Positions 12,679-54,403 of a stretch of 64,000 nt of DNA are shown one piece after another. The notes under the pieces were generated by a model, which did no database searches, had not been told where the DNA came from, and saw only the letters and a list, made by a program, of their open reading frames with translations. Made by a program: the position numbers and the translations under genes. Origin of the DNA: Sinohyriopsis cumingii (Eukaryota; Mollusca; Bivalvia; Unionida; Unionidae); the NCBI GenBank assembly GCA_028554795.2, contig JAPYKE020000276.1, positions 1 to 64,000 of the forward strand. Direction: 5' to 3'. Position 1 is the stretch's first letter. Each line of letters opens with the position of its first letter.

Positions 12679-13040
12679 AGTAATATGGGATACTCTAGGG
12701 ACAATGGAAATCCCAATCAAAAAGGTCGTGGGAACATCTAGGGACAATGTGAATTTAACATGGGGAATTTTAACATGGGTGGGACTATAGAGGGACAAAA
12801 AAGCATTGGGACTGTCTACAGACAATAGGAATGGAACAGTGGAGGTGACTTCATGGTACTGACGATTAACAACAATGTAGCAAGAGGCTAACCTCAATCG
12901 GACCAAAGACCGGGAAAAAACCCTAGAACGTTTGGCGGGATAGAGACATAGATAACACATACAACAGACAACATACAAACACAAATAACTATACAACCGA
13001 CTAAAAATTTATTAGGCAAGAAAGCAAATCTTTTCGAGGC
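12679..13040. repeat. Polinton A terminal repeat
   Basis: Contains degenerate tandem units of the type ctagggacaatg(n)gaatttaacatgg, equivalent to the gtctatg...aatttaacatgg units of B and gcgacaatggg units of C. It starts with AGT like the other termini. The opposite terminus of this copy is missing. Confidence 0.7.
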
Positions 13041-13048
13041 ATATGAGT

Positions 13049-13063
13049 GGCCTGAAAAGGGCC
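13049..13063 (-). terminator. Histone-type 3' stem-loop, decayed (gene A-x3)
   Basis: Minus-strand GGCCCTTTTCAGGCC with one base missing from the 3' arm, preceded by CCCAAA. It lies 12 bases past the end of the cassette gene. An AAAAGAT remnant of the downstream box follows. Confidence 0.65.
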
Positions 13064-13074
13064 TTTGGGTTCTT

Positions 13075-14569: not shown

Positions 14570-14660
14570 ATCTGTAAAAGAATCAGTGTTTATAATCACA
14601 CTACTCCACATTCACACAAATTGGCAACCTGAATAGTGTCTCTTTTCTAGAGCTTTGGGT

Positions 14661-14676
14661 AGCCCTGAAGAGGGCT
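14661..14676 (-). terminator. Histone-type 3' stem-loop (gene A-x2)
   Basis: Minus strand AGCCCTCTTCAGGGCT: perfect 6-bp stem, CTTC loop, followed by ACCCA and then CTAGAAAAGAGA about 14 bases later. It starts only four bases after the stop codon region of the gene ending at 14681. Confidence 0.8.
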
Positions 14677-14680
14677 GTTA

Positions 14681-15202
14681 TTAGAACTCCAGATGCACCT
14701 GCTTAATGGTGACATCTACCACGCCTGGCACCACAGATAGAACGACCACTCCAATCGTTCTCCCAACTCGCCATTGTGGTTGGGAACGCAGAGGAGGGTT
14801 GATTGGCTTCACTCTCCCAGTCTTCACTTTCAGGGATTGTGAAGACTTCCCTCTGTCTTCTCCTATTCCACATTCTTGTTGTGGCCTACTTATATCCTGT
14901 ACATGCAGCTGTACTGATACTGTCTGTGGTGCTGGTAGAGGCTGTGGTGTTGGTAGTGGCTGCGGTGTTTGTCTCTGTGGTGGCATCCTCGCCTCAGGCT
15001 TCACTTCACACACAGGTCTCCGCATTACATGAGGTAGAATAGGTTTTTTCTTTTCCTCCTCTTCTTTCTTTCTTCTTTTCTCCTCCTCCTTCTCTATCCT
15101 GGCCTCTTCGGCTACGGCCTCCATAGCCAGTTCATCCAGGATGCGCTTGGCATACTCCAGGTGCATTTGGAGTTCAAGCAATTTAGTAATTCTGTTGCTC
15201 AT
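14681..15202 (-). CDS. Cassette gene x2, coiled-coil plus Pro-rich protein, intact copy A
   Basis: The ATG at 15202 opens a 173-aa frame starting MSNRITKLLELQMHLEYAKR; an upstream in-frame TTG is ignored. Residues about 1-55 form a charged coiled coil (EEARIEKEEEKRRKKEEEEKK). A central Pro/Gln-rich section (about 75-100) has repeated TPQPLP/APQ phrases, and the C-terminus ends VVPGVVDVTIKQVHLEF. Copies in B and C share the helix but lack the Pro-rich part and have other C-terminal frames. Function unknown. It is flanked by the shared promoter block upstream and the histone-type stem-loop downstream. Confidence 0.75.
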   Translation of the reverse strand: MSNRITKLLELQMHLEYAKRILDELAMEAVAEEARIEKEEEKRRKKEEEEKKKPILPHVMRRPVCEVKPEARMPPQRQTPQPLPTPQPLPAPQTVSVQLHVQDISRPQQECGIGEDRGKSSQSLKVKTGRVKPINPPLRSQPQWRVGRTIGVVVLSVVPGVVDVTIKQVHLEF

Positions 15203-15295: not shown

Positions 15296-15558
15296 TCACC
15301 AAAACATTGACATATCATTACCCCAAGAAACATGGATTGCGCTGAATTAAAAGAAGCACTCACTCACCTTTTTACTTACAAACCCTAAATACTATAAAAA
15401 CTCACTGACTATTTGACAAGCTACGGAAACGAAGTGCTTATAGACACACTTCTAACAAAGTCAAACAAACGAAGTACTTATAGACACACTTCTGTCTTTT
15501 TAACTTACTAACATAACATTGGCAATTGAAGTAGTATCTTTTTTCTAGAGTATTGGGT

Positions 15559-15574
15559 AGTATTGAAAAGCGCT
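15559..15574 (-). terminator. Histone-type 3' stem-loop, decayed (gene A-x1a)
   Basis: Minus strand AGCGCTTTTCAATACT keeps the loop and flanks (followed by ACCCA and TCTAGAAAA) but has two mispairs in the stem. Position relative to the gene end is as in intact copies. Confidence 0.6.
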
Positions 15575-15606
15575 GTTTTTTGTAGACAGGGAGTTAAGGC
15601 AATCTT

Positions 15607-16035: not shown

Positions 16036-16169
16036 CCTACATTGTTCAAAGTCGGAACGCTTCAAACAAAGTTAAACAAACGAAGTGCTTATAGGCACAC
16101 TTCTATTTTTTTAACTTACTAACATACATTTGGCAACTGAATTAGTATCTCTTTTCTAGAGTATTGGGT

Positions 16170-16185
16170 AGCCCTGAAAAGGGCT
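16170..16185 (-). terminator. Histone-type 3' stem-loop (gene A-x1b)
   Basis: Minus strand AGCCCTTTTCAGGGCT, a perfect 6-bp stem with TTTC loop, then ACCCA and, 14 bases after the stem, AAAAGAGATA. The last matches the CUCUUUU pairing segment of metazoan U7 snRNA. Best-preserved copy in element A. Confidence 0.85.
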
Positions 16186-16217
16186 GTTTTTTGTGAACAG
16201 GGATTTATGGCAATCTT

Positions 16218-26454: not shown

Positions 26455-26827
26455 TGAGGAGAGAACTCGATATCGTCGACCCCACGTTATAGTGTTTCCT
26501 TCGATCAAATAGAATCATTAGGTGAAACTGGCATGACATGGGACAGAATTGCCTCATGTCTGTCAGTTAGTATCTCAACTTTATATAGGAGAAGGACAGA
26601 ACTGAATTAACCGGACATTGACGGACATAAATGACCGTAACCTTGACAGGCAAGTTTGTGATATATTGCATAGTACGCCTAACGTTGGCGAATCCTATAT
26701 GAAAGGAAGCCATCCGGGGCATGGCATACATATTCAGAGATGGCGTTTGCGAGAAAGTAATCAAAGAATTGATCCAGTGGGAAGAGCCATGAGAAGGAAG
26801 GACTGTATAAAAAGGAGAATATATAAT
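26455..26827 (+). pseudogene. Integrase-core (DDE) gene, 5' part, interrupted by Polinton B
   Basis: Two frames read as a helix-turn-helix (TWDRIASCLSVSISTLYRRR) and then NLDRQVCDILHSTPNVGESY, GIHIQRWRLRES and VDPVGRA-like IDPVGRAMRRK, ending RRIYN. This is the N-terminal part of a widespread metazoan single-copy-or-repeat integrase-core protein. The reading frame stops at codons TAT AAT, which are exactly the duplicated target site of Polinton B, and resumes at 47134. A shift near 26600 shows the gene was already decaying or has decayed since. Confidence 0.75.
26822..26827 (+). repeat. Target site duplication, left copy (TATAAT)
   Basis: TATAAT immediately left of the AGTAGTGAAG terminus; the identical hexamer follows the right terminus at 47134-47139. 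Six-base duplications are characteristic of Polinton insertion. Confidence 0.95.
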
Positions 26828-27207
26828 AGTAGTGAAGTGGGGCACTATAGGGTCTATGGAAATTAGTATTAAAAACACCCCTGGGTCAATATAGGGTCTA
26901 TGTAAATTTAACATGGAGAAAAACCCTGGGTCAATATAGGGTCTATGAGGAATTAGCATTACAGACTTCCCTGGGTCTGTATAGGGTCTATGTAAATTTA
27001 ACATGGAGAAAAACCCTGGGTCAATATAGGGTCTATGTAAATTTAACATGGGAATCTGGGAACTGTTGAGCGTCAAATGGAACAGGGTCGGGACCCTATT
27101 TTAATACGGTCCCGACCTAATGGGTCTATGGAAATGGAACAGGGGTAGGCAATTGAAAGTCTATCTCTTTTCGAGAGATTGGAGTGGCCCTGAAAAGGGC
27201 CTTTGGA
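26828..27207 (+). repeat. Left terminal inverted repeat of Polinton B
   Basis: Starts AGTAGTGAAGTGGGGCAC and is the near-perfect reverse complement of 46754-47133. The outer 230 bases are degenerate tandem units (gggtcaatatagggtctatg, aatttaacatgg). The inner part holds a histone-type stem-loop and its downstream box, pointing outward. Confidence 0.95.
27186..27201 (-). terminator. Histone-type 3' stem-loop inside left TIR
   Basis: Minus strand CCAAAGGCCCTTTTCAGGGCC followed by ACTCCA and then ATCTCTCGAAAAGAGATAG (27162-27180). The stem is perfect and the 5' flank CCAAA is the canonical histone one. It lies 45 bases past the stop of the outward-reading gene at 27246-27455. Confidence 0.85.
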
Positions 27208-27245
27208 TTTATGTTAATATGCCCTTAACATAAAGGGCATCTGCG

Positions 27246-27455
27246 TCATCTTCTTGTCCTCAAGCTGCGTCTTACTGCAGGGCCATAAATCAGAGTCCTC
27301 TTGAGGCATCCTTGTCTCTCCGCATACACTCTTCGTATCCACAGACTGGTGACTGACCTGTGGACAACTGTCCACTTGGATCGGACATACATTAGTATGT
27401 CCGTCCTGAACATCATCGAAAAAACAAGGGTGGAAGATTCGACTGTGGTCCACAT
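27246..27455 (-). CDS. Small outward-facing terminal gene of Polinton B
   Basis: First ATG downstream of a TATA-like TATAAAT (27501-27507, minus) opens a 69-aa frame starting MWTTVESSTLVFSMMFRTDI, with a basic C-terminus (RRSLRTRR). An overlapping frame (27214-27483) with Cys, His and acidic residues lacks an ATG near the cap site and is the alternative reading. Gene reality is supported by a TATA on one side and the histone-type stem-loop just after the stop. No family recognised. Confidence 0.5.
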   Translation of the reverse strand: MWTTVESSTLVFSMMFRTDILMYVRSKWTVVHRSVTSLWIRRVYAERQGCLKRTLIYGPAVRRSLRTRR

Positions 27456-27500: not shown

Positions 27501-27507
27501 ATTTATA
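27501..27507 (-). promoter_or_regulatory. TATA-like box of the terminal gene
   Basis: Minus strand CCCCTATAAATAAGCGC, about 45 bases before the ATG at 27455. It is one half of a divergent promoter shared with the gene at 27676. Confidence 0.6.
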
Positions 27508-27675: not shown

Positions 27676-28167
27676 ATGACGGAAACTCAGAAAACGACCA
27701 ATTGGGGTGCACCAGCAGTGGAGACCGCCCAAGGGAACCCGGACTTACTTTCAGAAGAGGTGAATTGGGATTTTGTGGATTTTTTTACCTCGCAAGAATT
27801 TGTTCCGGAACCTTCGTCACCTTCTTCATTAACACACGTGGAGAATTTTAGACAGAGACAGAAAGAAGAAATGGAGAAATTTATACAACAGCAAAAGGAA
27901 GCGGAACAAGCTTTTCTTCTACAGCAACAGCAGCAAGAAGAAGAGGTAAGAAAAAAAAAACAAGAAGAAGAAGAAGCATCAGCAGCAAAGAAACAAGGGT
28001 GTGAAAATCAAACGGTCACGGTACTGTTAGACATTTTAGCGGAGTTAAGAAGTGTAAAACAAATGTATCAGACTTCTTTATCACGACCGAAGAGAATACG
28101 ACCTTCCCGAGCTAAACACTCCAGCCCTGTGACTAAGCCTACCGTACCACCCTTAGTGATTTCAACC

Positions 28168-28215
<48 letters not shown>

Positions 28216-28284
28216 ACAGTACGCAGTCCAGAAGTAGGCCTTGGCCGTGGCAAAGGCTTAAGACAGTTAAAGTTGATTGCTTAA
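27676..28284 (+). CDS. Coiled-coil protein with poly-Ser tract
   Basis: Open 202-aa frame from a good ATG. The N-terminus is acidic (NWDFVDFF, EPSSPSS). Residues about 55-110 form a Gln/Glu/Lys coiled coil, a short hydrophobic helix (VTVLLDILAELRSVKQMY) follows, then a basic stretch (RPKRIRPSRAK), a poly-Ser run coded by (ATC/TCA)n repeats and a Gly/Arg tail. No homologue in the visible parts of A or C. It is the first plus-strand gene of the element and ends 21 bases before a histone-type stem-loop. An acidic-plus-basic layout could suit a regulatory protein, but this is speculation. Confidence 0.7.
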
Positions 28285-28305
28285 ACTCACCCCTACACCA
28301 AAAAA

Positions 28306-28321
28306 GGCCCTTTTCAGGGCC
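28306..28321 (+). terminator. Histone-type 3' stem-loop (gene 27676-28284)
   Basis: AAAGGCCCTTTTCAGGGCC followed by exact ACCCA and, about 14 bases after the stem, GAAAAGAGATAG. This is the closest match in the window to the histone mRNA 3' consensus and is outside the terminal repeat. Confidence 0.9.
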
Positions 28322-28481
28322 ACCCACGTCTCTCGAAAAGAGATAGACTTTCAATTGCCAACATCGATTAAAACTCAAAAAAAAAAAACATTGTACCCCT
28401 ATAGTACATGTGTATGAGTGTGTGAGTGTACGTTCTTATTTTAAAATCAAAACCCAAAGACACTTACCTTTTTATACCTAA

Positions 28482-28512: not shown

Positions 28513-29016
28513 TCACAATTCACAACAGAGCACTTTAAAAAGTTCACAGACTTCTTTTGTCTCATTGTTTAGTCTCTGTTTTTTGAATTTCTTCACCGTC
28601 ACAGTCTTTTCCTCCTCTTCCTCCTCACTTTCTTCCCTTCTTCTTTTCTTCTCCTGTTTCTTTTTCTTCACCTGTCTGCTTTCTTCCTCCTTTTCTTCTT
28701 CCTCTTCTTCCTCTGAAGAATCCCTCTCTTCTTCTGACTCCTCTTGTTTCTTTTTTGGGCAATCTGGAGACCAATGTCCTTTTTCTTGACAATAATAACA
28801 GGTATCTTGACTTTTGTCTTTTCTAACCCCTTTTTTTCTTTTTTGACGGTCTGGACACTCTGAAGACCAATGCCCTTTCTTCTGACAGATATAGCAAGTA
28901 TCTTCACTTTTATCTCGCAAGGAAGGAGAGTAGTCTGTCGGCTGGTCTGAAGAGAATTTTCTAATGACCCCTCGCAAAGCTCTGATGAAACGTTCGATTT
29001 GTGTAGTCTCTTCCAT
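28513..29016 (-). CDS. CCHC zinc-knuckle, acidic-tailed protein
   Basis: From the ATG at 29016 (an upstream in-frame GTG is ignored) a 167-aa open frame starts MEETTQIERFIRALRGVIRK. Two perfect CX2CX4HX4C knuckles follow, CYICQKKGHWSSEC and CYYCQEKGHWSPDC, typical of nucleic-acid binding in retroviral nucleocapsid and cellular RNA-binding proteins. The second half is a Glu/Lys-rich low-complexity tail. A TATATAAAAG box lies about 60 bases upstream and an AATAAA downstream. It is transcribed away from the polymerase gene. Likely single-strand nucleic-acid binding; possibly captured from a retroelement. Confidence 0.75.
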   Translation of the reverse strand: MEETTQIERFIRALRGVIRKFSSDQPTDYSPSLRDKSEDTCYICQKKGHWSSECPDRQKRKKGVRKDKSQDTCYYCQEKGHWSPDCPKKKQEESEEERDSSEEEEEEEKEEESRQVKKKKQEKKRRREESEEEEEEKTVTVKKFKKQRLNNETKEVCELFKVLCCEL

Positions 29017-29150: not shown

Positions 29151-32100
29151 ATGAAACGATCCAATTCATTTAAGAAGAAAGAAGAAAGTGAGAGGCAGAA
29201 ACGTGATCTATCCTCTCGTACCAGAGCTGAAGTATTGGCACAAATTCATGCCAGTGATTTTGAAGAGGACATGAGTGAACCTGAATTCAAACCCAGAGAG
29301 TCTGCCTCTAAACAAAGTTCACCACCCTTAGTCAACCCTGAAAAGTACTATCACATTCGAGAGACAGAAAAGCGCTCCTCTAGAAAATTTAGAACCACGG
29401 CTTACACCTTCACGGTGAAGTTTACAAATTTCAAGTCCGACGTACCGTTAGAGAAAGCAGAAGGGTTCATCACCAAGATGTGGGATTCTTTGCTTACCAT
29501 ACTCAAGCGACAATCTCAAGCCAAAGAAGACGATCGCTTGAGACTTTCCATACAACACGACGGCTTGAAATCCCCTGTTTGGATCGAGTTTAGTAGCCCT
29601 GCAGAATTGACCGCTTCCAAAGTCATGGACAAAATTCAACACGTACAACAATCCAATGACCAGTTTGACATCACCGACGGAAAAGCCACACTGTTTATGA
29701 CCCACGTGTCTCCTCCTCAAGGGACTGGACGCAAAAAGATGTTATTGGTGAACGACCTTCGCAGCATTAAGCGTAGCCTCGTCCAAACTCACAACCCTCA
29801 AGACCAGATGTGTTTAGCCAGGGCTATCATGGTGGGACGAACCTATGCCAACAAGAACGACACGGTAGAATGGAAAAGAGACTGGGAGAACATTCGACAA
29901 TCGGACCGAGCCAATCAACGAAGTGAAGCAGAACTCCTGTTACAACAAGCTGGCCTGTCCACAGACACACCCTGTGGCATTCCTGAGATGCAAACATTGC
30001 AAGATATTTTAGCTCCACGCTATACCTTGAAAGTGCACCCTCAAGAAATGCGTGGGCCTCTGTTGTTTCGAGGGAAAGACTTCAAGGATGGAAAATACAT
30101 TCATGTCTATCATCACGATGACCATTTCGATACCATTACCACTATCACCGGATTCCTAGGATATGTTTATTATTGCGAGAAATGTGACTATGGCTATAAC
30201 AATCGAGAGCAACACAAGCATTGTGGATCGAAATGCTCAGCATGTTTGGCCTCTCCACCCTGTCTGAGCGAAGGGCAAGAATCAGTGCATTGTTCAACTT
30301 GTCAGCGCACGTTTGTCAGCCCTGCCTGTTACCAACAACATTTGAAGACGCAAGGTTCACAGAAGAAATGTGCTTGTCAGCTCCTGAGATTGTGCCCTAT
30401 GTGTGGCCAAGGCATACGTACCAATAATGCCAAGGCACACGTATGTTCAGGAAAGAAAAAATAACACATTTGTCACCACATCGTGGACTTGGAACATCAA
30501 TGCTACGTGCAAAAATACCAATCCCAACCAGAGAAAGAGGATGGACACAATAAGAAAGGCAATTTCATCTTTTTCGATTTCGAATGCATGCAAGAGACCG
30601 GTATTTACATTCCTAATTTCTGCGTTGCTCATCAAGCGTGCGAAAAGTGCATTCAAGAACCTATCTTGAGTCATTGCCCTCACTGCAGCAAGATTCCTGG
30701 AGGACGTGAAAAAATCTTTCGGGGACCGAACACGCTAGCCGATTTCGCCCGATGGGTCTTAGACCCCATCGACAAGACGTGGAGCCAAGAGGACATCGAA
30801 CGTTACGAGATTGTCATCGTCATGCCACGGTGATGGCTCTAACAATTTCTCCGGATACGATGGACAGTTTCTTTTGAGATACTATACGGAACAAAGCACC
30901 GAGCGTCCTAAAGTCACTTTGAACGGAGCCAAAGTCATTTTCATGCAAGTGGGACAAGTACAGTTTAAAGATTCGATGAGTTACTTGGCCATGCCTTTGA
31001 GTCGAATGCCTAAAACGTTTGGAATGACAGAAATGGCTAAAGGGTACTTTCCACACTTTTTCAATACGGAAGCCAATCAACACACAGTTCTACCCCATTT
31101 GCCTGAGGCTCACTATTACGACCACGACAACATGCGTACCGAACAACGAGAAGATTTCTACGCTTGGTACCAGGCTCACGCCTCCGATCCTTTCGACTTT
31201 CAGGAAGAAATGTTAAAGTATTGTCGTTCCGACGTGGACATTTTACGGCGTTGCTGTGGAAAATTTCGAGAACTGTTCATGGAACACGGAGGGGTCGATC
31301 CTTTAAAAGAAGCTTGCACCATTGCCAAAGCGTGTTCCTTAGTGTACAGACAACGATTCATGCCTGAAAACACTGTGGCTGTCATCAGTCCTCAAACGAC
31401 CAACTATGTCAAACGTCAATACTCGGTCAAAGCCCTACGCTGGTTACATTACTTGTGCGACAAGGAAGACAAGTGGATTCAGCATGCCCGCAACGGAAGG
31501 GGCGAAAAGACAATCGGAACGCATTCGGTCGATGGGTGGGACTTAGAAAACCCCAAGATCGTGTACGAGTTTAACGGTTGCTTATTTCACGGATGTCCCG
31601 TCTGTTACCCTGACCGCGGCACTAAAAATCAGTTTTTACAACGAACCATGGAAGATTTGTACCAGGCCACTTGTCAGCGACGCCTAAAGTTAGAACAGGA
31701 AGGATACCAAGTGGTGGAAATGTGGGAACACGAATACGATCACCGTATGAAAACCGATCCCGAGTTTAAACGCCTCGTGGAAAGCTACCAGTTCATGGAC
31801 CCCCTGAACCCGAGGGATAGTTTGTACGGAGGAAGGACCAATGCCACCTGTTTGCTGTACCAAGCCGACGAAGAGAAAGGAGAAGAAATCAAATACTTGG
31901 ACGTGTGTTCGCTGTATCCCTACGTGTGCAAATATTGTCGCTTTCCTGTAGGGCACCCGCAATTGTTCACGGAACACATCGACCTGAAAAACATTCGACA
32001 ATACGAAGGCTTGATCAGTGCAAAGTTTTGCCTCCCACGGACTTGTAACATCCCGTCTTACCTCACCATTGTCAAGGAAAACTGATGTTTCCTTTGTGCC

Positions 32101-34243: not shown

Positions 34244-34321
34244 CAGTGGCCAGAAATTACTCACTATGTGGATTACTTTTGCTCTAGGAGAAGATAGTGA
34301 ATTGTACGGACTGACCTATTC

Positions 34322-34779
34322 ATGCATACTTTACAAGAGAACATTCGTGCTTTGCCTGTGGAGTTGAGAAAACGCATTTACCGAGAGCTGGTCAAAATAC
34401 AAGTCAAACGTAAAGAACAATTGCATCCGTTACGTCACCGGTGTTTGAACCACTGGTACCCGAATGCTATACAAGGACTGATTCAGTTGAAAGTGTTCCA
34501 TTGGACAGACATTGATCAACGACCCCCTGGTTTTAAAAAGGATTGGTTTGCTATTGATGATTCTATTTACTACATTGTAAACTTTTACTGCATCGAATTC
34601 CAGAGGAAGAGTTAACGAATTACCAACAACTTTTACACAATGTCAACTTAGTGAAAGAGGAAACTTCTGAACGAATTGTAATGTGTAAATTAGTGACTAA
34701 ACGATTTAAATTCGACACTGAAGTAAAACCATGTCTGTGCAAAGAGTACATTTCTTGTGTCAGACCAAAGAGGATTTAG
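34322..34779 (+). pseudogene. F-box-like family protein 2, frameshifted
   Basis: Starts MHTLQENIRALPVELRKRIY and runs open to 34615. The part homologous to the C-terminal half of the next gene (PEEELTNYQQLL, then Cys-rich CKEYISCVRPKR) continues in another frame to a TAG at 34777-34779, with the shift near 34590. Clear tandem paralogue of 34792-35310; even the upstream tgacctattcatg context is duplicated. Confidence 0.65.
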
Positions 34780-34791
34780 TATGACCTATTC

Positions 34792-35310
34792 ATGGGTACT
34801 TTGCTAGAGAACATTCGTGCCTTGCCTGTGGAGTTGAGAGAACGCATTTACCGAGAACTGATCAAAATACAAGTCAAACGTAAAGAACAGTTGCATCCGT
34901 TACGCCACCAGATCTTTAACCACTGGTACCTGAATGGTATAAAAGAACTGATTCGTCAGAAATTGTTTCAGTGGTCAGACCTTGTTCAACACTTTCAGTT
35001 AGTGAATGACCTAAATGTTCGTAATTTTGGTTACTTCGAGATTCACCTAGAGCAACGGATTGAGGAAGACGAGTTAAAGGATTACCAACATATTTTACGT
35101 GGAATCTGCTTAGCGGAAGACGAAACATCTAAACAAACTCTGAAGTGTAGGTTACAGTATGCAAGATTTAGATTCCCTACTGGAGAACAAAGATGTCTAG
35201 TTAGAAAGTACCTTTATTGCTTCCGAAATAAAGAGACTATAAAATCAGGAATCCATGCCACGGCTTATGTCACAAGTGATTGGACAGATTCCGTGGAAGG
35301 AACTCAATGA
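34792..35310 (+). CDS. F-box-like family protein 3, intact
   Basis: Open 172-aa frame, MGTLLENIRALPVELRERIY at the N-terminus. An F-box-like segment spans residues about 5-45 and is followed by an HPLRHQIFNHWYLNG block and an acidic helix (IEEDELKDYQHILRG). The C-terminal third has several Arg/Phe/Cys residues (RLQYARFRFPTGEQR). It is the full-length member of the trio. The 3' end overlaps the short frame starting at 35255. The substrate-binding part is unlike any family I know. Confidence 0.65.
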   Translation: MGTLLENIRALPVELRERIYRELIKIQVKRKEQLHPLRHQIFNHWYLNGIKELIRQKLFQWSDLVQHFQLVNDLNVRNFGYFEIHLEQRIEEDELKDYQHILRGICLAEDETSKQTLKCRLQYARFRFPTGEQRCLVRKYLYCFRNKETIKSGIHATAYVTSDWTDSVEGTQ

Positions 35311-38931: not shown

Positions 38932-40038
38932 ACACAAAAAGTGTTAGCCAGCATTTACTACGATCCCTCGCATCCTGCAGGTTACGCAGGAGTTCAAAAA
39001 TTGTATCGTGCTGCCGAAACGCGACTGAAAAGTCTCCGTTTACCTCAAGTGCAACGATGGTTACAAGAACAAGCTACCTACACTTTACACAAACCCATTC
39101 GACGCAACTTTTCCAGAAGTCGCACCCTAGTGGAAGGCATCGATCATCAATGGCAAGCCGATTTAGCCGACGTCTCTCATTTGGCAAGCTACAATCGAGG
39201 CTACAAATATTTGTTTTGTGTCATCGAGGTCTTTTCCAAATTTGCCTGGGTCGTACCCTTGACTTCCAAATCGAGCAGCGAGTTAGTGCGAGCCCTGCAA
39301 CGAGTGATGAAACAAAGCGGTCGTCACCCTCTTTGATGGCAAACGGATAAAGGCACCGAATTTCTGAACCAAGCGTTCCAAAAAGAATTAAAGAAACGTG
39401 ACATTCATTTTTTTACCACCGAGAATCCCGAAACCAAAGCCAGCATCGTGGAGCGTTTTCAACGCACTTTGAAAGAACGCATGTGGAAATATTTTACGCA
39501 TCACCACACTCTGAAGTACATCGACATCTTACCGCACCTGGTGCAAGCGTACAACCAATTTTACAATCGAAGGATTGGACGTGCCCCGCAAGAAGTGACT
39601 CCAGAGAACGAAGTGCTGGTGTTTGAGCGTCTGTTTGGTACGTCCCCGACGAGGGCTGTCCTCAAGAAAAGTGGAGTGTTGACCATAGGAGATTGGGTGC
39701 GCATTGGCAAAACCAAACGTACTTTCGACAAAGGTTACTTACCTAACTGGACTACCGAATTGTTTCGTGTCACTGGACGAGTGCATGGCCGTCATCCTGC
39801 CGTCTATAAATTAGAAGACATGAACGGAGAAGTGCTCAAAGGAACGTTTTATTTGCCCGAGTTACAACATGTCACCAAAAAAGAAGACGTGTACGACATC
39901 GAAAGCATTCTCGAACGCAGAACCCGTAAAGTGGGCAAACGACGTGTCAAAGAAGTCAAAGTACGTTGGAAAGGATATCCACCCAGTTTTGATTCTTGGA
40001 TCGACGCTTCGCAAGTCATCGACTATAAAAAGAAGTGA
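38932..40038 (+). pseudogene. Polinton integrase with chromodomain, broken copy B
   Basis: rve/DDE integrase that would cut and join the element ends and make 6-bp target duplications. The catalytic acidic residues are Asp in WQADLADV, Asp in WQTDKGTEF and Glu in KASIVERF, with about 61 and 34 residues between. An SH3-like segment (LTIGDWVRIGKTKR) and a C-terminal chromodomain (YDIESILERRTRK ... VRWKGYPPSFDSW) follow. An in-frame TGA lies at 39334, just before the second Asp, and the conserved ATG position (38932) reads ACA. It ends five bases before the next ATG. Confidence 0.9.
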
Positions 40039-44287: not shown

Positions 44288-44293
44288 AATAAA
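44288..44293 (+). terminator. Poly(A) signal of the late block
   Basis: AATAAA about 85 bases after the protease stop, conserved in position in A (16785) and C (54982). It separates the polyadenylated late genes from the stem-loop cassettes. Confidence 0.75.
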
Positions 44294-44410
44294 AAATGTT
44301 GTGTTTTGAAAAAAATGCCTTTGTGGTTTGTTTAGCAATAAGAATGTTTGATTGATGCTCTTTCATTTCTTACTATCCCTCTCATGAACGTTGCGGCTCG
44401 AAAACCGTGT

Positions 44411-44450
44411 GGGGGATGTTTTCTTTCACGTCCGCGCTTTGACTTTAAGA
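44411..44450 (+). promoter_or_regulatory. Shared cassette promoter block (B-x1)
   Basis: GGGGGATGTTTTCTTTCACG, TCCGCGCTTTGACTTTAAGA. The 3' end (CTTTAAGAACC) takes the place of the TATA box seen in sister blocks. The ATG follows about 55 bases later. Confidence 0.75.
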
Positions 44451-44503
44451 ACCGGGGTTGTTTCCAGTCTAACCATCCATTGTCGACTCATCCTCCTACG
44501 AAG

Positions 44504-44866
44504 ATGTGCTCCAAACTAGCTAAACTCAACGAAGCCTACGTGAATTTGCATAGGGTCAGACACAGTCTGATACCGAAGCCAGAAGAAATAGAGAATGTGA
44601 GAATGCTAAAAGTCACTGAAGACCTGATAGAAGAGCTCTTCAGAGAAGAAGTGAACAGGGAGAAAGAAGAATGGACAGAGAAGTACAGACTTCAGAGACA
44701 GCAGCAACAGCAGCAACAACAACAGCAGCAGCAGCAGCAACCTGAACCTGACAGAGGCTTTGTCGATTGTCGTATCGACACCAAAGAGTTCTTCTTCTCT
44801 TTCCGAAGAAGCAGACCTATCGTCAGAAAGTCTATCGTCAGAGGACGTCGCATTCTTAAAAACTAA
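44504..44866 (+). CDS. Cassette gene x1, coiled-coil with basic tail, intact copy B
   Basis: 120-aa frame MCSKLAKLNEAYVNLHRVRH; the ATG at 44504 fits the cap-site distance better than an upstream in-frame codon. A charged coiled coil (ENVRMLKVTEDLIEELFREE) leads to a poly-Gln run and a basic C-terminus (FSFRRSRPIVRKSIVRGRR). Same gene in C (119 aa) and twice in A. Its N-terminal RLAKL...L heptads resemble gene x2, so x1 and x2 may share ancestry. The stem-loop starts 25 bases after the stop. Function unknown. Confidence 0.75.
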   Translation: MCSKLAKLNEAYVNLHRVRHSLIPKPEEIENVRMLKVTEDLIEELFREEVNREKEEWTEKYRLQRQQQQQQQQQQQQQQPEPDRGFVDCRIDTKEFFFSFRRSRPIVRKSIVRGRRILKN

Positions 44867-44891
44867 AAGATTGCCATAGCAAACAAAAAAC

Positions 44892-44907
44892 AGCCCTTTT
44901 CAGGGCT
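44892..44907 (+). terminator. Histone-type 3' stem-loop (gene B-x1)
   Basis: AGCCCTTTTCAGGGCT, perfect stem, followed by ACCCCA and CTAGAAAAGAAATA. The outer A-T pair replaces the G-C pair of the terminal-repeat version, a compensatory change. Confidence 0.85.
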
Positions 44908-45269
44908 ACCCCAAATCTCTAGAAAAGAAATAAGAATCGATTTGCTAATGTGTGGATGTAGAGTAGTGTGAATATAAACACTCACTCTTTTCTGGTGTGA
45001 TTGTATATGTTTATGTGTGTGGGTGATTGTAAGCGCTCAAGTACGTTTGTGTGAATAGTAGATTATGATCATGTTTTTTTTTTTGCTGTTTGACGTGCCT
45101 GGAGAGTAGATTTGGGGTTTGATTTGACTGCTTTGTGTATGTGGATAGTATATTATTGGTTAAATGATTTATTTAGAATAGTGATGGGTAGTATGAAAAA
45201 GTCAGTGAGTGTTTCTTTTAAGTCCGCGCGTTGTTTGGTCTTGATCTAGGTAATATAAATTTTATTTTA
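44908..45269. repeat. Cassette spacer, repeated at 45710-46070
   Basis: About 360 bases without a gene, nearly identical to 45710-46070 (shared gtgattgtaagcgctcaagt, cagtgagtgtttcttttaag, gttgtttggtcttgatctag). It includes a partial upstream copy of the promoter core (aagtccgcgcgttg, about 45219-45233). The spacer, promoter and stem-loop together form the repeating unit. Confidence 0.85.
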
Positions 45270-45308
45270 GGGGATGTTTTCCTTCACGTCCGCGCTTTTA
45301 GTATAAAT
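45270..45308 (+). promoter_or_regulatory. Shared cassette promoter block (B-x2)
   Basis: GGGGATGTTTTCCTTCACGT, CCGCGCTTTTAGTATAAAT: best-conserved form, with a TATAAAT. ATG about 50 bases downstream (45356). Confidence 0.8.
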
Positions 45309-45355
45309 TGAAAATCGCTCGTTAGTCTAGCTACCCTTGTTGATTGATCAAGAGA

Positions 45356-45664
45356 ATGAACACCAGACTAGCAAAACTGCTTGAACTTCATGTACACCTG
45401 GAATATGCCAGGCGTATAGTGAATGAGCTGGCTGCAGAGGCCATAGTAGAAGAGGCAAGGATAAAGAAAGAAGAGGAGGAGAGAAGACAGAGGGAAGAGG
45501 AGGAAAAGAAAATAGGAGAGAGGATGACTTACAAGATACCAGAGACATAGGATTGGGGTGATGAAGCCAATCATCCCGCCTCTGCACTCCCAAGAAAAAA
45601 AGTAAAAGGAGACTGGGGAAGAAGATGTGTATGTGGTGCCAGGCCTGGAAGGTGCCATCATTAA
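45356..45664 (+). pseudogene. Cassette gene x2, one stop (copy B)
   Basis: MNTRLAKLLELHVHLEYARR followed by a Glu/Lys/Arg coiled coil (KKEEEERRQREEEEKK). An in-frame TAG at 45548 lies where C has Glu; beyond it the frame continues with a Cys-containing basic end (GRRCVCGARPGRCHH) to 45664. The equivalent C protein is 103 aa. Flanked by promoter block and stem-loop. Confidence 0.7.
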
Positions 45665-45693
45665 CCAGGTGTCACTGGAGTTCAAAAACAAAC

Positions 45694-45709
45694 AGCCCTT
45701 TTCAGGGCT
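45694..45709 (+). terminator. Histone-type 3' stem-loop (gene B-x2)
   Basis: AGCCCTTTTCAGGGCT then exact ACCCA and TTAGAAAAGAAATAG. Starts 30 bases after the conserved gene end. Confidence 0.85.
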
Positions 45710-46070
45710 ACCCAAACATTTAGAAAAGAAATAGTAATCGATTTGCCAATGTGTGTATGTAGAGTAGTGTGAATATAAACACTCACTCTTTTTCTGGTGT
45801 GATTGCATATGTTTATGTGTGTGGGTGATTGTAAGCGCTCAAGTACGTTTGTGTGAATAGTAGATTATGATCATGTTTTTTTTGCTGTTTGATGTGCCTG
45901 GAGAGTAGATTTGGGGTTTGATTTGACTGCTTTGCGTATGTGGATAGTATATTATTGGTTTAATGAAATTTATTTAGAATAGTGATGGGTAGTATGAAAA
46001 AGTCAGTGAGTGTTTCTTTTAAGTCCGCGCGTTGTTTGGTCTTGATCTAGGTAATACAAATTTTGTTTTA
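45710..46070. repeat. Cassette spacer, second copy
   Basis: Near-identical to 44908-45269, including the partial promoter core at about 46019-46033. No gene seen. Confidence 0.85.
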
Positions 46071-46110
46071 GGGGGATGTTTTCCTTCACGTCCGCACTTT
46101 AACTATAAGA
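46071..46110 (+). promoter_or_regulatory. Shared cassette promoter block (B-x3)
   Basis: GGGGGATGTTTTCCTTCACG, TCCGCACTTTAACTATAAGA, with TATAAGA as the TATA-like end; ATG at 46159 about 50 bases on. Confidence 0.8.
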
Positions 46111-46158
46111 ACCCACAAAGTTCGTCGTTCGCACCATTCTAAGGAATAAAAAACGAAG

Positions 46159-46739
46159 ATGGAAGTGTCCCAACTGTTTAATGATTTAAGGCATGTTTAT
46201 TTTTGGATGGTGGATGGTGAATATGGAGTTGAAAGGATGGAAGGAGATTGGAGGTTAAGAACAAGTCTGCAGTACGTGAGCGAACTAAAATTAGCCAGGG
46301 AGATGATAGAGGGATTAATTGAAGAAGAAGTGAAGCGATTGAGAGGGCTGATAAGTCCCCCTTATGTCAGAGTGGGGACAATAAAAGAGGCCATGGAGAA
46401 GGTAAAAGAAGTAAGAAGGTTCTTGGAAGAGATAGAAAAAGGTCAGAGTGGCCCTTTGTCAAAAGGAGTGTTGAACAAATGAAAAAAGGGGAAGAAAAGA
46501 TGAGAAAGGTGATAGATGAAGAAGTGGAGAAAATAAAGGACAGGTGGGCAAAAGATAGAAAAGAAGAAGAAAAAAGAAAGAAAAAGGAAGAACTAGAGAA
46601 ACTAAACGCTAACTGGATGAAAATCCAACAGAAGTTCCGAGCCATGGGTCACCCGGACTGGATACCGAAAACAGAAAAGAAGAAGAAGAAAGGAATGATG
46701 GAAAAAATAAGGGGATGGATAAAGAAGTTAAGGAGTTAG
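46159..46739 (+). pseudogene. Cassette gene x3, frameshifted copy B
   Basis: MEVSQLFNDLRHVYFWMVDG, then EEEVKRLRGL, PPYVRVGTIKEAMEKV. A one-base loss near 46438 ends the frame at 46482; the homologous second half (GEEKMRKVIDEEVEKIKDRW, RAMGHPDWIPKTEKKKKK) runs to a TAG at 46737. Charged, helical, no domain recognised. It is the outermost plus-strand gene and its stem-loop lies in the right terminal repeat. Confidence 0.7.
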
Positions 46740-46753
46740 AAGAAGAAGAAGAA

Positions 46754-47133
46754 ACCCAAAGGCCCTTTTCAGGGCCACTCCAATCTCTCGAAAAGAGATA
46801 GACTTTCAATTGCCTACCCCTGTTCCATTTCCATAGACCCATCAGGTCGGGACCTTATTAAAATAGGGTCCCGACCCTGTTCCATTTGACGCTCAACAGT
46901 TCCCAAATTCCCATGTTAAATTTACATAGACCCTATATTGACCCAGGGTTTTTCTCCATGTTAAATTTACATAGATCCTATACAGACCCAGGGAAGTCTG
47001 TAATGCTAATTCCTCATAGACCCTATATTGACCCAGGGTTTTTCTCCATGTTAAATTTACATAGACCCTATATTGACCCAGGGGTGTTTTTAATGCTAAT
47101 TCCCATAGACCTTATGTGCCCCACTTCACCACT
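46754..47133 (-). repeat. Right terminal inverted repeat of Polinton B
   Basis: Reverse complement of 26828-27207 with few differences, ending ...GTGCCCCACTTCACCACT. The inner end holds the stem-loop of gene x3. Confidence 0.95.
46761..46776 (+). terminator. Histone-type 3' stem-loop inside right TIR (gene B-x3)
   Basis: CCAAAGGCCCTTTTCAGGGCC, then ACTCCA and ATCTCTCGAAAAGAGATAG. Identical to the left-TIR copy, pointing outward. Confidence 0.85.
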
Positions 47134-47139
47134 TATAAT
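47134..47139 (+). repeat. Target site duplication, right copy (TATAAT)
   Basis: Identical to 26822-26827 and immediately outside the right terminal repeat. Confidence 0.95.
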
Positions 47140-52207: not shown

Positions 52208-52490
52208 AGTAGTGAATGGGGTCACTTTAGCGACAACGGGAATTAGCATTAAAAACCACCCTGGGTCACTTTGGCGACAATGGGAAATTTAACATTACGA
52301 AAACCCCTGGGTCACTTTAGCGACAATGGGAAATTAACATGGGAATATATTTTGGGTCTGTTGAGCGACAAAGTAAATTAACACGGGGAATAAATCGTGG
52401 GTCTGTTTAGCGAGAAGGGAAATTTAACATAGGCAAAAATAAAAAAATAAAAAAGGGTAGGCAATTGAAAGTCTATCTCTTTTCGAGAGA
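52208..52490. repeat. Polinton C terminal repeat
   Basis: Degenerate tandem units (gggtcactttagcgacaatg, ggaaatttaacat) followed by the outward stem-loop and downstream box. Unit sequence has drifted from B (gcgacaa versus gtctatg) while the layout is kept. Confidence 0.85.
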
Positions 52491-53125
52491 TGTGGGTGGC
52501 CCTGAAAAGGGCCTTTGGGTTTCTTCTTATAACTCTTCCACTTCTTCAACCATCTTCTAACTTTTGCCACTATTCCTGTCTTCTTCATCTTTATTTCTGA
52601 CTCAGGCATCCAGTCAGGATGACCTATCGCTCGCAATTTCTCCTGTATTCTTGTCCAGTTATTGTTGAGTTTCTCAAAGCTTTCTTTTCTCTTTCTATTT
52701 TCTTCTTCTTTTCTTTCCTTAAACCACTTTTCTTTCATGTTCTTTACCTCTTCCGTTAGCACTTTCCTCATTACTTCTTCCGTTTTTGTCAACTGGTCGA
52801 AACACCATTTTACGTATCGCCACTCCATCCAATACAATACTTTTTCTAGGAAGCACCTGACTTGGATGACATGGTCCAGTACTTCCTTCAAACTTCCCAC
52901 TCTGACATAAGGTGGGTCAGTAAATCCTCTTGACTTGTTGACTTCTTCTTCTATCATCCCTGCGATGAGATCTCTGTCTACCTTTAGTCCTTTGACTTGA
53001 ATAGTTAACAAGTCTTGCCTATTTCCATCACTCCATTCCTTTTCTATTCTTCCTACATTATATTCAGCATCCATTATCCAGAAATAGATATCTCTTAATA
53101 GATTGAATAATTTTGTCACCTCCAT
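52424..53125 (-). CDS. Cassette gene x3, open copy C with lost stop
   Basis: 233-aa open frame from the ATG at 53125, MEVTKLFNLLRDIYFWIMDA. Blocks: IEEEVNKSRGF, DPPYVRVGSLKEVLDHV, WMEWRYVKWCFDQL, RAIGHPDWMPESE. In A and B a TAG ends the gene after the KK(W/L)(R/K)S-like helix; here the codon is TAT, so translation would run through the stem-loop sequence (PKGPFQGH) into the terminal repeat to 52424. This loss of stop is the only visible defect. Confidence 0.75.
   Translation of the reverse strand: MEVTKLFNLLRDIYFWIMDAEYNVGRIEKEWSDGNRQDLLTIQVKGLKVDRDLIAGMIEEEVNKSRGFTDPPYVRVGSLKEVLDHVIQVRCFLEKVLYWMEWRYVKWCFDQLTKTEEVMRKVLTEEVKNMKEKWFKERKEEENRKRKESFEKLNNNWTRIQEKLRAIGHPDWMPESEIKMKKTGIVAKVRRWLKKWKSYKKKPKGPFQGHPHLSKRDRLSIAYPFLFFYFCLC
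52498..52513 (-). terminator. Histone-type 3' stem-loop in C terminal repeat (gene C-x3)
   Basis: CCAAAGGCCCTTTTCAGGGCC, exact ACCCA, then ATCTCTCGAAAAGAGATAG. Perfect stem. Confidence 0.88.
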
Positions 53126-53213: not shown

Positions 53214-53578
53214 AAGACTCAAATCTTATATTACCTAGATCATCACTTAAAACGCGCGGATGTGAAGGAAAACATCCCCTACTTTTCTCATCTCTTATTA
53301 TCTACTATTCACATACGTGAATCAGCAATAAACAAACCCAAAATCTACCATTCACACACGCAAAGCATTAAAATCAAACCCAAATCTACTATCTACACAA
53401 ACCAACTTAAGCTCTTACAAAACCCAATAATCTACTATCCACACAAACGTACGTGAGCGCTTACAAACACAAACACATACACTCACACATGGAAAAAAAG
53501 AGTCAGTGTTTATATTCACACTACTCTACATACACACATTGGCAAATAGATTACTATATCTTTTCTAAAGGTTTGGGT
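53214..53578. repeat. Cassette spacer in C
   Basis: No gene. Contains the partial promoter copy and ctactatccacacaaacgta / gtgagcgcttac phrases shared (in reverse) with the B spacers. Confidence 0.75.
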
Positions 53579-53594
53579 AGCCCTGAAAAGGGCT
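53579..53594 (-). terminator. Histone-type 3' stem-loop (gene C-x2)
   Basis: Minus strand AGCCCTTTTCAGGGCT, exact ACCCA, then TTTAGAAAAGATATAG. Starts 30 bases past the gene end. Confidence 0.85.
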
Positions 53595-53624
53595 GTTTTT
53601 TTTTAAGAACTCCAGGGCACCTGG

Positions 53625-53936
53625 TTAATGATGGCACCTTCCAGACCTCGCACCACACATACATCTCCGACTCCAATCTCCTTTCACTCTTCTTTTGACT
53701 GGGAGCGCAGAGGGAGGATGATTGGCGTCAGCACCCCAATCCTCTGTCTCTGGAATATTGTACGACATCCTCTCTCCTATTTTCTTTTCCTCCTCTTCCC
53801 TCTGTCTTCTCTCCTCCTCTTCCTTCTTTATTCTTCCCTCTTCTACTATGGCCTCCGCTGCCAGTTCATTTAACAGGCGCCTGGCGTATTCCAGATGCAT
53901 ATGGAGTTCAAGAAGTTTGCTTATTCTGGTATTCAT
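53625..53936 (-). CDS. Cassette gene x2, open copy C
   Basis: 103-aa frame MNTRISKLLELHMHLEYARR from the ATG at 53936. Charged coiled coil (EEGRIKKEEEERRQREEEEK), then DWGADANHPPSALP and a Cys/Arg-rich end. Compared with A, the last third is probably in a shifted frame, since an alternative frame here encodes a GAIINQV segment resembling A's DVTIKQV end. Function unknown. Confidence 0.7.
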   Translation of the reverse strand: MNTRISKLLELHMHLEYARRLLNELAAEAIVEEGRIKKEEEERRQREEEEKKIGERMSYNIPETEDWGADANHPPSALPVKRRVKGDWSRRCMCGARSGRCHH

Positions 53937-54026: not shown

Positions 54027-54377
54027 AAAACAAAAGTTATATTACCTAGATCATGACCAAACAACGCGCGGACCTAAAAGAAACACTCACTAATTTTTTT
54101 ATACTATCCATCACTATTCCCAAAAAAAATTCATTTTAAAAAATAATATACTATCCACATACGCGGAGCAGCAATAAACAAACCCCAAAACTACTATTCC
54201 CACACGTCAAACATCAAAAAACATTATCATTATCTACTATCCACACAAACGTACGTGAGTGCTTACAAACACAAACACATACAATCACACCAGAAAAGAG
54301 TTAGTTTTTATATTCACACTACTCTACAGACATACATTGGCAAATCGATTGTCATTTTCTTTTCTAGAGATTGGGGT
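54027..54377. repeat. Cassette spacer in C, second copy
   Basis: No gene; same phrases as 53214-53578 (ctactatccacacaaacgta, cacaccagaaaagagttag). Confidence 0.75.
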
Positions 54378-54392
54378 AGCCCTGAAAAGGCG
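54378..54392 (-). terminator. Histone-type 3' stem-loop, decayed (gene C-x1)
   Basis: Loop and 3' arm (TTTTCAGGGCT) with ACCCCA and TCTAGAAAAGAAAA remain, but the 5' arm reads CGCC instead of AGCCC and the segment before it is deleted up to the gene end. Confidence 0.6.
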
Positions 54393-54403
54393 ATCTTTTA
54401 TAT

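Follow-up and report, generated by a model that had tools for sequence, protein, structure and literature searches.

Histone-type 3′ signals and host histone promoter elements at the terminal genes of a Polinton family in the bivalve Sinohyriopsis cumingii

Metazoan mRNAs without poly(A) tails are, to our knowledge, essentially histone mRNAs only. Why, then, do small genes of a virus-like element in a bivalve genome end in a hairpin of the histone type, and could they be expressed through the pathway that serves the histone genes of the host? This question is raised by positions 1 to 64,000 (forward strand) of contig JAPYKE020000276.1 of the Sinohyriopsis cumingii assembly GCA_028554795.2, hereafter the window, which contains three copies of a Polinton, referred to as elements A, B, and C. 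A preliminary description of the window had pointed out 12 such hairpins and proposed that the mRNAs concerned are non-polyadenylated and timed to host DNA replication. The genes in question are gL and g0 at the left end and g1, g2, and g3 at the right end of the element, all outside its core block. Judging from their sequence signals, we consider it very probable that these five genes use the host replication-dependent histone pathway, including its signals, its processing, and its expression in S phase.

Histone-type hairpins behind the small terminal genes

The hairpins were compared with the Rfam covariance model of the histone 3′ stem-loop (RF00032; curated cut-off, 34 bits). Ten of the 12 positions named in the preliminary description as histone-type match this model at E<0.02, four of them above the gathering cut-off (35.9-40.3 bits) and six below it (24.6-33.7 bits; E 5.9e-6 to 0.015), and none of the ten lies in the 18.5 kb of the window set outside the elements. 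The strict 16-nt motif occurs eight times in the window, against zero occurrences in 200 first-order Markov sequences. When a covariance model was built from all 12 copies, these scored 50.8-74.2 bits, a range that is circular for the model's own members, and the next window site scored 17.5 bits; it is the gap between the two that is informative. The copies at 15559 and 54378 proved to be decayed, as claimed (62 and 57 bits with the 12-copy model, again circular for them); that at 14661, listed earlier as a good copy, has an altered loop (CTTC) and reaches 25.3 bits.

In element B, the hairpin with its downstream element follows gL at 27161..27206 (minus strand, 35.9 bits), g0 at 28301..28346 (plus strand, 37.1 bits, 21 nt past the stop), g1 at 44887..44932 (plus strand, 30.4 bits, of the AGCCCT/AGGGCT type), g2 at 45689..45734 (plus strand, 33.7 bits), and g3 at 46756..46801 (plus strand, 35.9 bits, 21 nt past the stop). 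On the minus strand of element C, the best-scoring hairpin of the window (40.3 bits) follows g3 at 52473..52518, another follows g2 at 53554..53599 (31.5 bits), and a decayed one that retains its downstream element follows g1 at 54354..54403. The four copies of element A, also on the minus strand, stand behind g1 copy a (16144..16190, 31.3 bits), g1 copy b (15535..15584, decayed and placed by alignment and the 12-copy model), g2 (14637..14681, altered loop, 25.3 bits), and g3 (13025..13068, lacking one base, 24.6 bits).

All 12 hairpins are in sense to the preceding small gene, as had been stated. The claim that they lie close to gene ends holds for g0, g1, and g3 of B and g2 of C (21-30 nt from stop to hairpin) and for g2 of A (4 nt), but the g2 frame of B stops about 140 nt upstream of its hairpin, the g3 frame of C reads through its hairpin, and several genes of A are broken. 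Behind the stem, GAAAA begins after 13-14 nt in 12/12 window copies (GAAAAGA in 11/12), and TTGCYWA lies 29-34 nt past the stem in 12/12.

The histone genes of the host carry the same arrangement. Host H4 has 114 matches in the genome, mostly in tandem repeats of about 8.3 kb, and in one such repeat (L060) H4, H2B, H2A, H1 (read from the lysine-rich frame), and H3 each end in a hairpin. Its sequence is GGCCCT-TTTN-AGGGCC (GGTCCT/AGGACC in H1), GAAAAG lies 13-14 nt past the stem in 5/5 of these genes, and after H2A TCAATTTTGCC is found further on, as in the Polinton copies. Animal histone genes have a purine-rich histone downstream element (HDE) that pairs with U7, and cleavage without poly(A) addition occurs between stem-loop and HDE (PMC5636114, PMC12774660). 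Candidates for the U7 RNA of the host were sought by a guessed pattern, a pairing stretch plus an Sm-type site, which gave 24 matches against 19 for the reversed control. A U7 RNA should have a compact hairpin right behind the Sm-type site; among the 12 of 24 candidates inspected none had one (lowest energy, -10.4 over 45 nt), and they were rejected.

Could this be a generic palindrome at transcript ends that only resembles the histone type? Polyadenylation is marked by hairpins in giant viruses and in virophages, to which Polintons are related, and the hairpins of the window do stand behind genes. However, the match to RF00032 is sequence specific and includes flanks and loop, both hairpin and downstream element show identity with those of the host histone genes, and no hairpin follows the element's protease gene. 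In B, this gene is followed on the plus strand by AATAAA at 44288..44293 with GT-rich sequence behind it, and likewise in A (16790) and C (54987). We therefore regard a generic palindrome as extremely improbable.

Occurrence in the genome and conservation

The genome to which the window belongs (2.9 Gb, 1138 contigs) yielded at least 75 RF00032 matches among the best candidates scored, all above the cut-off. We fetched 48 of these 75 loci, namely the best 28 and 20 of lower rank that included the lowest six. All 48 hairpins lie in sense behind a small Polinton gene, with 0 antisense and 0 behind a histone gene. By tblastn, a known small gene is found just upstream in sense in 39/48 loci (gL in 22, g0 in 8, g3 in 8, and a weak g1 match in 1, L032); the stop is 18-27 nt before the hairpin in 30 of those 39, and the other nine have shifted or broken frames. 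In the remaining 9 loci and in L032, the hairpin stands behind a second type of g3 gene, about 130 amino acids (aa) long; L008, L023, L045, and L048 have it intact over its whole length, and the rest have it shortened or broken. A run of six or more purines starts 13 nt past the stem in 42/48 loci and 10-14 nt past it in 48/48.

Because these 48 loci had been selected by hairpin score, copies of g0 were also picked by protein alone. Among the best 30 of 150 listed protein matches, which include the window copy, and with one stem mismatch allowed, a hairpin follows in sense 18-28 nt past the stop in 28/30 and in antisense in 0/30; of the two exceptions, L084 has a hairpin with more mismatch and L089 has lost it. 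The protease gene served as control. At 12 gene ends of 150 listed, hand-picked on the plus strand, AATAAA lies 90-120 nt past the stop in 12/12 and a hairpin in 0/12. The sense orientation seen in the window thus extends to the genome, and in both of them the covariance-model scores are not at background level, so that within this genome these two predictions that go back to the preliminary description held.

The same counts bear on the possibility that the hairpin acts in DNA, as a terminal-repeat, replication, or packaging signal, and not in RNA. Two of the five hairpins of B, those of gL and g3, do form the inner edge of the terminal repeats. In contrast, the internal copies stand behind genes and always in sense (antisense 0/30 and 0/48), and the downstream element follows at a fixed spacing, which makes a role in DNA extremely improbable in our view.

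The second g3 gene (MASN...) looks unrelated to the first and was seen at L004, L008, L009, L023, L025, L027, L028, L032, L045, and L048. It takes the place of g3 ahead of the same hairpin and is preceded, at most of the ten loci, by the same promoter element, which amounts to a gene cassette with constant ends and an exchangeable coding part.

Conservation was compared between the hairpins and their surroundings. Of the hairpin sites, 46/48 agree between A and B, against 387/570 sites upstream (Fisher p 9.5e-6). Between B and C, it is kept at 16/16 sites for both g2 and g3, with 165/190 and 141/190 sites kept upstream. In the alignment of the 12 window copies, pairing is retained in 93% of stem cells; at the outer position, six copies have A-U, five have G-C, and one is unpaired, and the other five pairs hardly vary. 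The covariation score of 0.207, compared with 0.083 for shuffled alignments (0/500 shuffles reach the observed value), supports a stem structure, with the rows being related copies, not independent events.

The coding parts were compared by the ratio of nonsynonymous to synonymous substitution rates (dN/dS). For gL (18 open genome copies and the window copy), the median dN/dS is 0.13, with 141/153 pairs below 1 and a median dS of 0.87; 18/171 pairs were dropped for tiny or undefined dS, and the pairs are not independent. Because dN/dS is low across the open copies, gL is a real gene under purifying selection. For g0, the four copies that passed the filter gave a median of 0.47, with 6/6 pairs below 1.

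These data can be set against the idea that the blocks are relics, that is, histone gene ends captured by an ancestor, kept by descent and gene conversion, and unused. Many window copies indeed have broken genes, and hairpin blocks are duplicated as units within the window. However, A and B agree far better in the hairpin than in its flanks, the outer stem pair covaries, purifying selection acts on gL, and the same block is found behind two different g3 genes. Unused relics appear quite improbable on this evidence.

Promoter elements and the proposed histone programme

The likeness to host histone genes is also found at the other end of the terminal genes. The host H2B and H1 promoters contain GATGTTTTC(C/A)ATCACGTCCGCGCT, the H4 promoter contains TTTCTTTTAGGTCCGCGCGTT, and the H2B/H1-type element is present in reverse at H2A. 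In the window, an H2B/H1-type element is present in each of the ten copies of g1-g3, with 20-25 of 27 bases as in H1; the best match elsewhere in the window has 17. A TATA box follows directly, in the weak form TTTAA(A/G) for g1 of B and of C. In B and C, g2 and g3 have a second copy further upstream; three of these four copies are of the H4 type, one with 21 identical bases. On the plus strand of B, the element before g1, common to the host H2B and H1 promoters, is at 44413..44440, the g2 promoter is at 45212..45298 (H4-type at 45212-45232, H2B/H1-type at 45271-45298, then TATAAA), and the g3 promoter is at 46013..46100 (H4-type at 46013-46033, H2B/H1-type at 46073-46100, then TATAAG). In the genome, an element with 23-25 of 27 bases was found upstream of the hairpin in 18/18 g3-type loci, the best match being 490-766 nt away in 14 (before g3) and 1240-1476 nt away in 4 (before g2). 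The 12 protease control loci contain the promoter element too, because the g1 promoter follows directly.

A promoter test by longest shared substring was abandoned. Its result for one element was 21 nt, whereas a random control once yielded 31 nt (mean, 11.0; 95% at 14), and we therefore relied on the mismatch count with local background and on blastn. With the whole 8.4-kb histone repeat as query against the window, blastn returned 53 rows at E≤0.1, of which 49 are hairpin blocks or promoter elements, 1 is the reversed element before H2A, and the other 3 are a single 21-nt stretch of the H3 gene that matches elsewhere in the elements. Since nearly all rows fall at hairpin blocks or promoters, the histone likeness does not extend beyond the two regulatory ends. 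The core ACGTCCGCG is presumably similar to the site for HINFP, a histone factor of vertebrates. In the part of a paper on histone promoters that was available (PMC1794435), neither 'HiNF-P' nor 'GGTCC' nor 'CGTCCG' occurs. Both the promoter match and the downstream element are new in this analysis, having been absent from the preliminary description.

Several points weigh against the use of the histone pathway by the terminal genes. (i) gL and g0 have no histone promoter element (0/30 gL/g0 genome loci reach 19 of 27 bases), and none was seen before host H3 in the repeat. (ii) Neither host U7 (RF00066) nor host SLBP (PF15247) had a match in the genome, which says little as the controls were also empty; the pairing energy of the downstream elements with the vertebrate U7 5′ end was -6.1 to -11.2, against a mean of -8.1 for random pieces of the window, and is not better than background. 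(iii) The hairpin copies are kin, so the counts are not independent, and two of five covariation measures are not clearly, or not at all, above the shuffles (29/500 and 491/500). The downstream element, compared between A and B, is kept at 28/33 sites, which is borderline (p 0.05), and for the g1 hairpin B and C agree at 13/16 sites, below the 167/190 of its gene, because the C copy is decayed. (iv) The selection of the 48 loci by hairpin score has been mentioned; AATAAA lies within 300 nt past the hairpin in 8 of them, and a distant Polinton-like contig found in the genome contig collection (L002; 7.9 kb, in a bacterial metagenome-assembled genome, or MAG) has no RF00032 match.

The hairpins of gL and g0, which come without a histone promoter element, also speak for a narrower role, in which hairpin and downstream element only form poly(A)-less 3′ ends, as compact stops near the ends of the element, and any cell-cycle timing comes from elsewhere. 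Such a role would also fit the position of the gL and g3 hairpins, which mark where the terminal repeats end on their inner side. However, g1-g3 also copy the histone promoter element, and in animals SLBP levels couple histone 3′ processing itself to S phase. We consider 3′-end formation without timing unlikely, if by no means negligible.

Use of the histone pathway by the terminal genes is supported by the outcome of the sequence-level predictions in this genome, and it would work as follows. The five genes are built like host replication-dependent histone genes, being short and, in their open copies, intron-free. SLBP would bind the hairpin in the nascent RNA, and the U7 small nuclear ribonucleoprotein (snRNP) would pair with the downstream element; the RNA would be cut between the two, and no poly(A) tail would be added. 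The viral mRNAs would then be made, translated, and destroyed alongside histone mRNAs, and their peak in S phase would coincide with the time when the DNA of the element could be copied. The core block, which at its protease end closes with AATAAA, should be polyadenylated. Probably, then, the terminal gene set as a whole is under the host histone programme through copies of both ends, the promoters for g1-g3 and the SLBP/U7 3′ signal for all five, with regulatory genes giving non-polyadenylated S-phase mRNAs and core genes giving poly(A) mRNAs.

The 3′ signal itself is a normal member of RF00032; what is new is its use by genes of a virus-like element with no recognisable histone product, together with host histone promoter elements. 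If true, mimicry of histone genes at both ends would give a DNA virus or transposon a new means of coupling its gene expression to the replication of host DNA, it would explain the escape of such transcripts from poly(A)-selected RNA sequencing, and the question of when Polintons replicate would become testable. Abundant copies of the element could compete with the histone genes for SLBP, U7, and histone transcription factors. The system could also serve as a natural experiment on which histone gene signals suffice for the S-phase expression of a non-histone gene.

The element family and known systems

Element B has both ends present. Its 383-bp terminal inverted repeats (left, 26828..27210; right, 46752..47133; both given on the plus strand) are 97% identical and flanked on each side by the 6-bp target duplication TATAAT (26822-26827 and 47134-47139), and the inner edge of the left repeat starts with the histone-type hairpin. 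Elements A and C are further Polinton copies, partial or decayed and oriented opposite to B; several genes are broken in B and several in A. Within the repeats lie tandem units (45 bp in B; 26846-27054 and 46908-47115, and in C 52208-52440) whose motif differs by eye between B and C in a like arrangement. Pfam scans of window open reading frames (ORFs) identified a piece of a type B DNA polymerase in B (PF03175, E 1.1e-22, 30943-32085), an A32-type ATPase (PF04665, E 5.6e-5), and a chromodomain at the expected integrase position (39481-40038, E 5.6e-8), where the frame is broken and the rve core had no match; an adenovirus-type protease was recognised by eye. Between the polymerase and ATPase genes of B, a 209-nt stretch is directly duplicated (34312-34520 and 34782-34990, 86-87% identical).

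The terminal genes encode no recognisable histone. Pfam scans covered 30 ORFs, of which 28 lie within the elements or at their edge, and found no histone family; there was no histone match in the eight genome loci examined, and in none of the 48 loci was a histone the best upstream gene. The proteins are small, and those of gL, g1, and g3 have basic C-terminal ends. gL (27246..27455, minus strand, TATA box at 27507) has 69 aa in the window copy and 76-78 aa in 17/18 open genome copies, and g0 (27676..28284, plus strand) is open with 202 aa. Adjoining g0 in convergent orientation is a CCHC zinc-knuckle gene (28513-29016, minus strand; PF00098, E 6.8e-14), which has AATAAA rather than a hairpin. 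g1 is a 160-aa ORF (44384..44866, plus strand) whose relatives mostly start at or near residue 41, and it is doubtful whether its first 40 codons, a stretch shared with the promoter element, are coding. Eight relatives in public protein sets cover 43-75% of the g1 query. Its predicted structure has two helices and a beta hairpin (predicted local distance difference test, pLDDT, 70; predicted template modeling score, pTM, 0.30), and the model had no fold match at E≤0.001 in PDB or BFVD. g2 is damaged in B (45356..45550, plus strand, 64 aa left open) and longer in C (53625-53936) and A (14681-15202), and g3 of B (46159..46739, plus strand) is split across two reading frames that form a single open frame in genome copy L007.

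Copies of this Polinton family seem to be very numerous in the host genome. An initial screen turned up 29147 candidate places for g0 and 38161 for the protease gene, 150 of each were scored, all with E<1e-75, and many of the listed copies are without an internal stop. For the ATPase copy of element C, 420 relatives were found at E≤0.001 (120 of them listed). One close relative (P0026) comes from a MAG that bears the name Candidatus Thiodiazotropha taylori, which lives in symbiosis with lucinid clams. This ATPase is probably host contamination of the MAG, which would be a weak hint that the element family lives in bivalves. In a viral contig collection, searches with hairpin patterns, three protein families, and an ATPase motif gave no hairpin match and no close relative, and one weak ATPase relative (L001, 24% identity); in the genome contig collection, there was a short match (L003) besides L002.

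How does this element compare with what is known? The marks of adintoviruses are a PolB and an rve integrase with a C-terminal chromodomain (PMC11071296). Like Polintons and adintoviruses, the window elements have terminal inverted repeats with a 6-bp duplication, a PolB, an A32-type ATPase, a chromodomain at the integrase position, and, by eye, an adenovirus-type protease. Histone-type 3′ ends would set them apart. We found no open-access paper on a histone stem-loop in Polintons and, going by titles and abstracts in the open-access literature, no report of viral use of the histone 3′ signal; in the available portions of PMC11071296 and PMC11071308, the words 'stem-loop' and 'polyadenylation' are absent. 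Histone mRNAs have been called a unique class (PMC12775136).

With the replication-dependent histone genes of animals, the terminal genes share (i) the sequence and fold of the hairpin, with an A-rich flank before and an AC-rich flank after it, (ii) the GAAAAG downstream element 13-14 nt past the stem and the shortness of the genes, and (iii) in g1-g3, the host's own histone promoter elements. In contrast to histone genes, they encode no histone seen by Pfam, and the outer stem pair of g1 and g2 is A-U (AGCCCT/AGGGCT), unlike in the five host hairpins.

A further comparison is with the early genes of DNA tumour viruses. The E1 and E4 early genes of adenovirus are driven by host S-phase promoters via E2F, and the likeness would lie in the coupling of terminal regulatory genes of a linear DNA virus to the S phase of the host. 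The LxCxE motif is absent from the nine Polinton ORF pieces checked (g2 of B was among them in a wrong frame, and gL was not among them), which is one difference from these viruses. The other lies in the means, as the Polinton would use the signals of host histone genes, including a 3′ end without poly(A).

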